In this document: positions 42,115 to 48,508 of the stretch, piece by piece
Layout: every line of letters begins with the position of its first letter
Position numbering within the stretch: the stretch's first letter is position 1
Source of the DNA: Bartonella sp. M0177
GTDB taxonomy: Bacteria > Pseudomonadota > Alphaproteobacteria > Rhizobiales > Rhizobiaceae
NCBI RefSeq assembly: GCF_016102285.1
Contig: NZ_JACFOY010000002.1
Coordinates: 62,001-126,000 of the forward strand
Reading direction: 5' to 3'
DNA: 64,000 nucleotides
Made by a program: the position numbers and the translations under genes
Notes under the pieces: model-generated
What the model saw: the letters and a program-made list of their open reading frames with translations, nothing else
What the model was told of the DNA's origin: nothing
Databases searched by the model: none

Positions 42115-43149
42115 TTATGCTTTGGCTTTTTTAGGTGTAATCAGATTGCGGGCGATCAGAAGTTCGGCAATCTGCACCGCATTAAGCGCTGCACCTTTGC
42201 GCAAATTATCGGCAACAACCCAGAAAGACAGGCCATTTTCAACGGTAATATCCTCGCGGATACGGCTGACAAAGGTGTCATCTTCTCCGGCTGATTCATA
42301 AGGTGTCATATAGCCGCCATCCTCATGCTTGTCGACAACCTGACAGCCTGGAGCATTGCGCAGGATTTCGCGTGCTTCATCGGCACTGATGGGTTTTTCA
42401 AACTCGACATTGACTGCCTCGCCATGGCCGATGAAAACCGGAACACGAACGGCAGTTGCCGTAAGCTTGATTTTCGGGTCGAGCATTTTCTTGGTTTCGG
42501 CAACCATTTTCCATTCTTCTTTGGTGTAGCCGTCTTCCATGAATACGTCGATATGGGGAATAACGTTGAAAGCAATACGCTTGGTGAATTTGCGCACCGT
42601 AATAGGGTCTGCCACAAAAACCGCGCGCGATTGCTCGAAAAGCTCGTCCATTCCGGCCTTTCCGGCACCCGAAACCGATTGATAGGTTGCAACCACAACA
42701 CGCTTGATGGTTGCGGCATCGTGCAACGGCTTTAGAGCAACCAGAAGCTGGGCTGTCGAACAGTTCGGATTGGCAATAATATTATGTGTTTTGAAGCCGT
42801 CGATTGCATCCGGATTGACTTCCGGAACAATGAGCGGAACATCAATATCGTAACGCCAGGCCGAAGAATTATCGATAACGACAGCGCCGGCCGCGCCGAT
42901 TTTCGGTGCCCATTCTTTGGAAACATTGCCACCGGCCGACATCAGGCAAATATCTGTGTCGGAAAAATCGTAATTATCAAGAACTTTGACCTTCAGTGTT
43001 TTGTCACCGAAGGAAACTTCTGTTCCCAATGACCGATGCGAGGCGAGTGGTACAACTTCATCAGCCGGAAAACCGCGCTCTTCGAGAATATTGAGCATTT
43101 CTCGTCCAACATTTCCCGTGGCACCTACAACAGCAACCTTAAAACCCAT
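42115..43149 (-). CDS. asd: Aspartate-semialdehyde dehydrogenase
   Basis: The 344-residue enzyme has the NADP-binding start MGFKVAVVGATGNVGREMLNIL, catalytic Cys130 in IIANPNCSTAQLL and the family stretch VVATYQSVSGAGKAGMDELFEQS. It reduces aspartyl phosphate to aspartate semialdehyde, the branch point for lysine/diaminopimelate, threonine, isoleucine and methionine. The ATG at 43149 follows AGGAG (43160-43164). That site is part of a long pairing with the upstream leader (43229-43240), and the leader encodes a Thr/Ile/Lys-rich peptide; see the leader entries. Single gene with its own terminator. Confidence 0.97.
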   Translation of the reverse strand: MGFKVAVVGATGNVGREMLNILEERGFPADEVVPLASHRSLGTEVSFGDKTLKVKVLDNYDFSDTDICLMSAGGNVSKEWAPKIGAAGAVVIDNSSAWRYDIDVPLIVPEVNPDAIDGFKTHNIIANPNCSTAQLLVALKPLHDAATIKRVVVATYQSVSGAGKAGMDELFEQSRAVFVADPITVRKFTKRIAFNVIPHIDVFMEDGYTKEEWKMVAETKKMLDPKIKLTATAVRVPVFIGHGEAVNVEFEKPISADEAREILRNAPGCQVVDKHEDGGYMTPYESAGEDDTFVSRIREDITVENGLSFWVVADNLRKGAALNAVQIAELLIARNLITPKKAKA

Positions 43150-43161
43150 TTAATCAGAACT

Positions 43162-43289
43162 CCTGTCTCTCTCCGTGTTTTGTGAAGAAGCCCGGCGGCC
43201 GTCAGGCTTACCCCCCGGGCCGCACCCGGGAGAGAGCAGGTTGGCCAAGGGACGTCAGATAATTTTCTTTGTCGTTTTTTTGTGGCCAA
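43162..43289 (-). promoter_or_regulatory. Attenuator structures of the asd leader
   Basis: Read on the minus strand, the elements are: TTGGCCA (43289-43283) complementary to TGGCCAA (43247-43241), which loops out the Lys/Thr/Lys/Ile codons of the leader peptide; CCTGCTCTCTCC (43240-43229) complementary with one bulge to GGAGAGAGACAGG (43174-43162), which includes the start of the asd Shine-Dalgarno; CCCGGG (43230-43225) complementary to CCCGGG (43219-43214); and, as alternative, GCCCGG (43220-43215) with CCGGGC (43195-43190). The CCCGGG pairs exclude each other, as in classical attenuators. No long T-run follows the last GC stem, so control of asd translation is at least as likely as transcription termination. 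Confidence 0.6.
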
Positions 43290-43371
43290 TAATTGTCAAG
43301 GATGCGCAGCAGTCATCAAAGCCGCAATTGTAGCTCGAAAACCGATCGATATGGAACCGAGAAAAGTCCAT
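43255..43371 (-). CDS. Leader peptide of asd, 38 residues
   Basis: The short ORF starts at ATG 43371, seven bases after a strong AAGGAG site (43384-43379), and ends at TGA 43257-43255. A sigma70-like promoter is just ahead. The peptide starts MDFSRFHIDRFSS and ends TIIGHKKTTKKII, so the last 13 codons hold four Ile, four Lys and three Thr. These are the amino acids made from aspartate semialdehyde. Self-complementary GC-rich sequence follows within 20 bases of the stop. Layout and codon content are those of an attenuation leader peptide. I do not recall a published description for asd. Confidence 0.7.
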   Translation of the reverse strand: MDFSRFHIDRFSSYNCGFDDCCASLTIIGHKKTTKKII

Positions 43372-43394
43372 TGTTAAACTCCTTGATCGCATTG

Positions 43395-43422
43395 GTTTTA
43401 GCTTATTTTCAACCTCTGTCAA
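43395..43422 (-). promoter_or_regulatory. Promoter of the asd leader
   Basis: On the minus strand TTGACA (43422-43417) and TAAAAC (43400-43395) are 16 bp apart. The predicted start site is near 43388, just before the AAGGAG of the leader ORF. The -35 is perfect, the -10 matches 4 of 6. Confidence 0.6.
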
Positions 43423-48311: not shown

Positions 48312-48500
48312 TTTTTGCGGGAGAGTGTAAAAATACAGTCAACCGTGTTTTGGCCGCCGAAGGGGAAAACAGCCCGTAATCTCTCAGGCACAAGGAACCG
48401 TAAAAAGATCAAGACAGCTCTGGAAAGTCGGGTTTATCCCGCGCCGAAGGTGTAAGTGGAGGGGAGAGCTTTCCACAAGTCTCTCAGGCTCAAGACAGAG
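48312..48500 (+). promoter_or_regulatory. Tandem glycine riboswitch
   Basis: Two glycine aptamers are in series. Aptamer 1: P1 TTTTTGCGG (48312-48320) with CCGTAAAAA (48398-48406), then the conserved GGGAGAGTG, GCCGCCGAAGGGG and CTCTCAGGCA segments. Aptamer 2: P1 CTCTG (48418-48422) with CAGAG (48496-48500), and conserved GCGCCGAAGGTG and CTCTCAGGCTCAAG. Order and spacing match the classical gcv riboswitch, which turns the glycine cleavage operon on when glycine binds. Confidence 0.96.
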
Positions 48501-48508
48501 GGGTGTGA

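Follow-up and report, generated by a model that had tools for sequence, protein, structure and literature searches.

What does the DNA between the promoter and the asd gene of this Bartonella encode, and how might it act on the gene? The window, i.e., the whole stretch of 64,000 nucleotides that was analyzed, comes from a 2.6-Mb genome, and the closest named relative among the matches listed is an uncultured Bartonella whose Asd protein is 99% identical. The pathway of Asd leads to lysine (Lys) and threonine (Thr), and ahead of the gene lies a short open reading frame (ORF) with codons for both amino acids at its end. From sequence comparisons, we propose with high confidence that this leader is a cis-acting leader-peptide attenuator, which reads charged lysyl- and threonyl-tRNA and sets the expression of asd. 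The elements concerned are as follows:

43395..43422, minus strand: promoter TTGACA-N16-TAAAAC (TTGACA 43422-43417, 16-nt spacer, TAAAAC 43400-43395), from the sequence
43379..43384, minus strand: leader Shine-Dalgarno AAGGAG, 7 nt before the ATG at 43371, from the sequence
43255..43371, minus strand: leader ORF, 38 aa, MDFSRFHIDRFSSYNCGFDDCCASLTIIGHKKTTKKII, from its translation and the Lys/Thr-rich ends in relatives
43255..43281, minus strand: codon run KKTTKKII plus stop, putative stalling site, from the sequence and the codon use of relatives
43283..43289, minus strand: arm A, TTGGCCA, within the leader codons, from GGCC counts in relatives
43241..43248, minus strand: arm B, TTGGCCAA, 3' of the leader stop, from GGCC counts in relatives
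43229..43239, minus strand: arm C, CTGCTCTCTCC, complementary to the region of the asd Shine-Dalgarno, from C:F pairing in relatives
43214..43230, minus strand: hairpin D, CCCGGG-loop-CCCGGG, from pairing in relatives
43188..43209, minus strand: hairpin E, terminator-like, AAGCCTG/CGGGCTT with GGCC in the loop and a weak T-run, from changes in relatives
43163..43174, minus strand: arm F, GGAGAGAGACAG, overlapping the asd Shine-Dalgarno AGGAG (43164-43160), from the sequence and relatives
42115..43149, minus strand: asd, aspartate-semialdehyde dehydrogenase, 344 aa, the candidate regulated gene, from NCBIfam NF011456 and TIGR01296 (asd_B), both above their cut-offs

The promoter, the AAGGAG, the 38-codon ORF, and the TTGGCCA/TGGCCAA pair had been reported ahead of asd by an initial annotation of this DNA, and we confirmed them on the minus strand. 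The 3' end of the leader ORF in the window reads TIIGHKKTTKKII, and TTGGCCA (43289-43283) and TGGCCAA (43247-43241) are perfect complements that flank the Lys/Thr/Ile codons. Arm B has two pairing options, namely, arm A or the loop GGCC of hairpin E, and hairpin D and arm C have two bases in common. The helix that had been described as a 12-bp complement to the asd Shine-Dalgarno does exist, but it consists of 8 bp (CTCTCTCC, 43236-43229, with GGAGAGAG, 43174-43167) followed, past one bulged A, by 3 bp (CTG, 43239-43237, with CAG, 43165-43163), and it overlaps the asd AGGAG by its two leading bases. The T-run was rightly called weak, as the sequence directly after hairpin E (43209-43188), CTTCACAAA, shows.

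Could all this be a chance ORF in AT-rich DNA? Folding of the single sequence would fit such an explanation, being unremarkable (z = -1.3 for 273 nt, with 21 of 200 shuffles equally stable), so the window alone proves little and the evidence beyond chance is comparative. That evidence, i.e., the conservation in relatives of the leader ends, the AAA use, the structure, the distribution, and the promoter, refutes the chance explanation, to which we assign practically no probability. At 171 of the 210 asd loci examined in the family, an ORF with at least 6 Lys/Thr in its last 12 codons stops 70 to 130 nt before asd. Dinucleotide shuffles gave such an ORF in 8 of 4200 cases and reverse complements in 0 of 210; when at least 8 Lys/Thr are required, the numbers are 134 of 210 loci and 0 of 4200 shuffles. 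The 210 loci, which are not independent of each other, comprise the 80 best and 30 best asd matches of two listings plus 100 other family genomes, covering 130 of the 151 genomes of the family. In a wide-window screen (5 or more Lys/Thr among the 12 final codons), 182 of the 210 loci were retrieved: 157 of a long class, 19 short, and 6 elsewhere. Three Bartonella loci among these 182, L020, L028, and L039, have their ORF at -223 to -238 and were not counted as leaders. Taking one leader per group at 90% identity yielded 98 nonredundant leaders.

The consensus leader end at the family loci is K-T-T-T/A-K-T-V-stop. Across the 98 leaders, Lys and Thr make up 25.3% and 43.4% of the last 12 codons (percentages that are inflated because these leaders were selected for K+T of at least 5 in that very stretch) versus 1.5% and 4.8% of the preceding 24 codons. 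Isoleucine (Ile), which the initial annotation had named as a third sensed residue, accounts for 2.6% of the last 12 codons versus 4.7% of the preceding 24, much like methionine (1.4% versus 2.9%), and the final codon is Val in 89 of 98 main-class leaders. With Ile not enriched near the stop and Val ends dominating, we rejected Ile as a sensed residue for the main class. The proposed Lys/Thr/Ile attenuator on asd thus narrows to a Lys/Thr attenuator, for which the ends and arms of relatives speak; the conserved shared signal is Lys plus Thr. Ile ends do recur among Bartonella leaders close to that of the window and in a group with short leaders. All 12 leaders of the close relatives (L339 to L350) end in TTKKII, and 11 of them share identical end codons, so that selection on amino acids and selection on RNA are not separable there. 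Among these 12, all from the genus of the window, the leaders differ in their first part and retain their end. Across the family loci, Thr positions mix ACG and ACC and some positions interchange Lys and Thr, which points to selection on amino acids.

A strong codon bias accompanies these ends. At 48 loci, 133 of the 143 leader Lys codons are AAA and 10 are AAG; within asd at the same loci, 62 of 1133 Lys codons are AAA and 1071 are AAG. The use of AAA in the leader may confer greater sensitivity to tRNA shortage, or it may serve RNA pairing. The leader Shine-Dalgarno is less regular: a 5-of-6 match was found in just 27 of 98 relatives, the window itself having AAGGAG. At nine loci (L145, L162, L175, L177, L183, L185, L186, L190, and L196) we noted very short possible leaders of about 11 to 13 codons that end in IKTAII, IKTSIS, IKTTII, and similar, with Ile frequent and the stem region arranged differently; these were scored as misses in the count of 171. 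Two further loci (L064 and L154) have the leader stop 165 nt before asd, compared to the usual distance of about 105 nt, with extra intervening sequence.

The promoter is conserved as well. In 94 of 98 relatives, TTGAC is found 100 to 260 nt ahead of the stop codon of the leader, versus 780 of 4900 shuffles, and the fuller motif TTGAC-N15-19-TAnAA in 50 of 98 versus 11 of 4900; in 61 of the 81 distances listed, TTGAC lies 50 to 59 nt before the predicted leader start. A consensus promoter scan of the window did not have the TTGACA-N16-TAAAAC promoter among its listed results. Given this conservation of a promoter ahead of the leader, a transcript start downstream of 43255 appears unlikely. The order promoter, leader ORF, structured RNA, asd is fixed in relatives. 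Two hallmarks of an attenuator are present, namely, a small ORF, equipped with start signals, that lies between promoter and gene, and a string of codons specifying pathway end products, here Lys and Thr. Overall, the asd leader is real and conserved rather than a product of chance, comparative evidence lends strong support to Lys/Thr sensing, and the leader is very probably a leader-peptide attenuator; for the sensing part, i.e., Lys/Thr codons in a cis leader on asd, we consider this very likely.

How widely does the leader occur? With a covariance model (R1), a single strong match is obtained in the window's genome (E = 4.9e-25; next best, E = 0.997). Across 199 genomes of the order, 32 have a match at E up to 0.01, in searches whose size called for stricter filters, by which weak matches are lost. 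Of the 30 loci examined, 6 belong to the window's own family; 29 adjoin asd and all 29 carry Lys/Thr-rich ends (e.g., TTTKTTV, RKTTA, and TKTTKTT), a result that is not fully independent of the Lys/Thr end because R1 includes 36 nt of leader codons, and the remaining locus (L236) lies on a stretch without asd. A model-free criterion (an ORF with at least 6 Lys/Thr in its last 12 codons that ends 40 to 200 nt before asd) identified such ends at 36 of 69 asd loci at the order level, sampled out of 119 genomes with a match and including 3 loci from the window's family, and at 1 of 28 loci from other orders of the class, sampled out of 88. The sole one of these 28 loci with such an end, L317, has TTTKKTKTVA before asd.

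The same data bear on whether the peptide, rather than its translation, could be the active product. The leader ORF might encode a peptide that functions in trans, by analogy with peTrpL of Sinorhizobium meliloti (described in passages of PMC7298713), and a fusion of SEP5, a small ORF (sORF) product of S. meliloti, was detected in the soluble fraction according to a passage of PMC10117765. We consider a trans-acting peptide very improbable: the Lys/Thr end is kept while the remainder of the peptide is variable even among close relatives, and 29 of the 30 model matches examined adjoin asd.

Within the genus of the window, many Bartonella are without the leader, which counts against the attenuator reading. 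In eight named Bartonella and in genome G091, both the leader and hairpin E are absent, and traces of B, C, and F survive in most of the eight. At L020, L024, L028, L029, L034, L039, and L044, and less clearly at L021, where leader and hairpin E are gone, arm B and the former D stretch resemble in several cases TTGACC, about 18 nt, TATAGC; by eye, this looks as if a dead attenuator became a promoter. Another locus of the genus, L352, in a 1.6-Mb genome, has an R1 match (E = 5.8e-8) and a short ORF that ends in MKSMKPTI; sequences resembling arms B, C, and F are still recognizable there, and it may be an intermediate of leader decay. We also considered the idea that loss of the leader tracks loss of threonine synthesis, as marked by homoserine dehydrogenase (PF00742). 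PF00742 is missing from 4 of 151 family genomes, three of which (G091, G005, and G076) showed no leader and the fourth of which (G001, 85% complete) has one; PF00742 is present in all the genomes that hold the 8 named Bartonella loci with no leader in the customary position. Among 61 genomes of the genus, searched with the same stricter filters that lose weak matches, all 13 strong R1 matches (E below 1e-19) fall in PF00742-positive genomes, and the 10 PF00742-negative ones have no strong match and two weak ones. This pattern is one-directional and confounded by descent, and the idea is therefore not established.

We next consider the RNA between the leader and asd. Alignment with relatives, which the initial annotation had set in advance as a test of its proposal, came out in its favor, with the Lys/Thr end kept and compensatory changes in the arms. 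In alignment A1, which holds 33 relatives at less than 80% identity after 16 were left out by eye and may thus favor structure, 79.3% of cells are paired in the whole structure, versus 36.6 to 54.3% when the structure is slid along the alignment, and the covariation score is 0.200 versus a shuffled mean of 0.147, with 0 of 500 shuffles as high. The whole structure surpasses 500 of 500 shuffles and every slid version in covariation score, cells paired, and double-change cells. The number of pairs with double changes in A1, 11, is not unusual (shuffled mean 7.9, 42 of 500 shuffles as high, slid versions 8 to 15). Automatic folding of A1 with RNAalifold returned 5 pairs only, as length differences blur the alignment; folds of subgroups and the named pairs reveal more.

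The individual elements differ in how well they are kept. The best-kept helix is C:F, with pairs retained in 88.8% of cells in the 33 relatives and compensatory changes (for one pair, 13 relatives have UA and 12 have CG). Hairpin D is paired in 88.5% of cells, one of its pairs being GC in 11, CG in 10, and unpaired in 10. Hairpin E is paired in 81.4% of cells, and in 6 of its 7 pairs both partners have changed. For E and A:B we further used 85 leaders, i.e., the 98 minus 13 divergent ones removed by eye. The best hairpin of the E stretch lies below the shuffle mean in 77 of these 85 relatives, on average by 3.8 kcal/mol, and 159 of 1020 shuffles of the stretch are as stable as the real best hairpin. 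A:B is paired in only 58.0% of cells in the fixed alignment of the 33 relatives; because its place shifts with codon number, we tested it without a fixed alignment and found GGCC both in the leader end and in the 18 nt past the stop in 71 of 85 leaders versus 27.1 expected from codon-order shuffles. GGCC occurs within 18 nt past the leader stop (arm B) in 80 of 98 leaders, and the loop GGCC of hairpin E is matched by arm B in 84.8% of cells; B:E displays no covariation beyond shuffles in the 33 relatives. In 27 leaders that we label "Rhizobium-type" by a motif near the asd start, the equivalent of C:F pairs GCUCUCU with AGAGAGC there. GGCC in E is found in 42 of 58 non-Rhizobium leaders and 10 of 27 Rhizobium-type ones, and at least 4 T in the 8 nt after the E core, by rough automatic placement, in 27 of 58 and 6 of 27, respectively.

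These elements suggest how the attenuator might switch. With Lys and Thr plentiful, the ribosome would run to the stop and cover arm B, whereupon hairpin E and C:F would form and asd would stay low. With Lys or Thr short, the ribosome would stall on AAA/ACN codons and cover arm A, leaving arm B free to pair with hairpin E, and asd would be raised. The output could be transcription termination, translation initiation through C:F, or both.

We modeled ribosome positions by equilibrium folding, which ignores kinetics, and hence the modeling neither proves nor refutes a switch. The initial annotation had held that stalling opens the asd ribosome site. Folding with and without a placed ribosome did not bear this out: in the 98 leaders, the openness of the asd Shine-Dalgarno averages 0.40 on ribosome-free RNA, 0.46 when a ribosome sits at the stop, and 0.45 when it is stalled, and thus shows no average opening on stalling; it rises by more than 0.1 in 11 of 98 leaders and falls in 18. 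In the window, it is 0.27 with the ribosome at the stop and 0.30 stalled. This bears on a version of the attenuator in which the output is translational only, with stalling breaking C:F and opening the asd ribosome site, and no termination. We consider this version rather unlikely. It accords with C:F as the best-kept helix with compensatory changes, with the pairing near the asd start in the 27 Rhizobium-type leaders, and with T-runs after E that are weak in the window and scarce in Rhizobium-type leaders, but equilibrium folding yields no gain in openness on stalling, the conserved arm B and hairpin E would be left without a clear role, and, as first stated with Ile, it conflicts with the lack of Ile enrichment.

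Hairpin E, which the model defines as the most stable hairpin that its stretch can form (-1.9 to -21.8 kcal/mol), responded differently. In the window, its probability, P(E), falls from 0.77 with the ribosome at the stop to 0.00-0.01 with it stalled; in the 58 non-Rhizobium leaders, mean P(E) goes from 0.62 to 0.50 on stalling, with 30 leaders down and 9 up by more than 0.1. For the 27 Rhizobium-type leaders, P(E) does not drop on stalling (0.86 to 0.90). As a control, we shuffled the segment exposed by the stalled ribosome: the real segment has no stronger effect than the shuffled ones in the 58 leaders (0.51 versus 0.47), P(E) being lower by more than 0.2 than with the shuffled segment in 13 of 58 and higher in 15 of 58, and in the window, 5 of 30 shuffled segments do as well as the real one. 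A terminator switch in the window is thus suggested by the model, in a manner not specific versus shuffles. Such behavior is what one would look for if the output were transcriptional only, with E as an intrinsic or Rho-assisted terminator, B:E as the antiterminator, and C:F tuning translation. We regard this version of the attenuator as quite possible, if somewhat short of even chances. The changes on both sides of E and its stability relative to shuffles argue for it, as do the GGCC in E and the T-rich tracts of non-Rhizobium leaders and the response of P(E) in the window and among the 58; the weak T-run of the window, the Rhizobium-type leaders that do not switch in the model, the lack of specificity versus shuffled exposed segments, and the absence of covariation in B:E argue against it.

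A more tentative reading, which we would call possible yet doubtful, is that of a two-input attenuator, in which one leader would sense Lys and Thr jointly at the enzyme common to their pathways, the rare AAA codon would act as a sensitive Lys reporter, and sensing would stay constant with an output that depends on the clade: termination at E with a T-run, or, in Rhizobium-type leaders, control of translation via the helix at the asd ribosome site. If so, an element found order-wide would have changed its output and kept its input. For the leader-peptide attenuator as such, the mixing of two end products means that the leader can show how an attenuator adds two signals, and its preference for AAA over AAG as the Lys codon offers a clear mutational handle. 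The leader is likely a control point for the lysine, diaminopimelate, and threonine pathway in a large group of plant- and animal-associated bacteria.

How does the asd leader relate to known systems? No family of Rfam release 15 covers it in the window at the gathering score; the only match there at that score is a glycine riboswitch aptamer at 48410-48508 on the plus strand (54 bits). Four asd loci compared with Rfam at E up to 1 gave two subthreshold matches only. One of the two, to ctRNA_pGA1, overlaps the window's leader (25.4 bits versus a cut-off of 45, E = 0.2) and was read as chance. For 3 leader peptides, Pfam and NCBIfam returned no families at E up to 10, such short peptides being hard for these filters. 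Among known attenuators, that of Escherichia coli thrL has Thr and Ile codons and an intrinsic terminator. Like thrL, the asd leader precedes an aspartate-family gene, encodes a peptide containing runs of end-product residues, and has alternative stems predicted, but it differs in its use of Lys plus Thr, in its lone asd gene, and in the helix at the asd Shine-Dalgarno. Closer in phylogeny, leader-peptide attenuation is described within the same bacterial class for an ilv leader peptide of alphaproteobacteria (Vitreschak et al. 2004, cited in a passage of PMC1273637) and for the trp attenuator of S. meliloti (passages of PMC10117765 and PMC7298713); as described there, these concern other operons and other codons.

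The nearest counterpart is SEP5 of S. meliloti. The initial annotation knew of no multi-amino-acid leader on asd, and one instance is indeed in print, as a suggestion: in passages of Hadjeras et al. 2023 (PMC10117765), SEP5 is an sORF whose 3' region contains six Thr and three Lys codons and that lies in the 5'-UTR of a gene called aspartate dehydrogenase there, and its authors describe it as "possibly a leader peptide" and "conserved only in Sinorhizobium." Besides SEP5, we found no asd leader of the Lys/Thr kind among the papers listed for the open-licence part of PubMed Central. Leaders ending in STTKAKTTTKTV (L071 and L155) have exactly the Thr and Lys count given for SEP5 in that text; these codon counts fit the idea that SEP5 is the asd leader, and if it is, it counts in favor of the attenuator reading. 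The lone S. meliloti suggestion would then become a widespread, testable element that lies outside all family libraries searched here. Compared to SEP5 as portrayed in those passages, which is said to be confined to Sinorhizobium and is presented without RNA structure or mechanism, the asd leader extends across the family and into other families of the order, and it comes with defined arms and hairpins.
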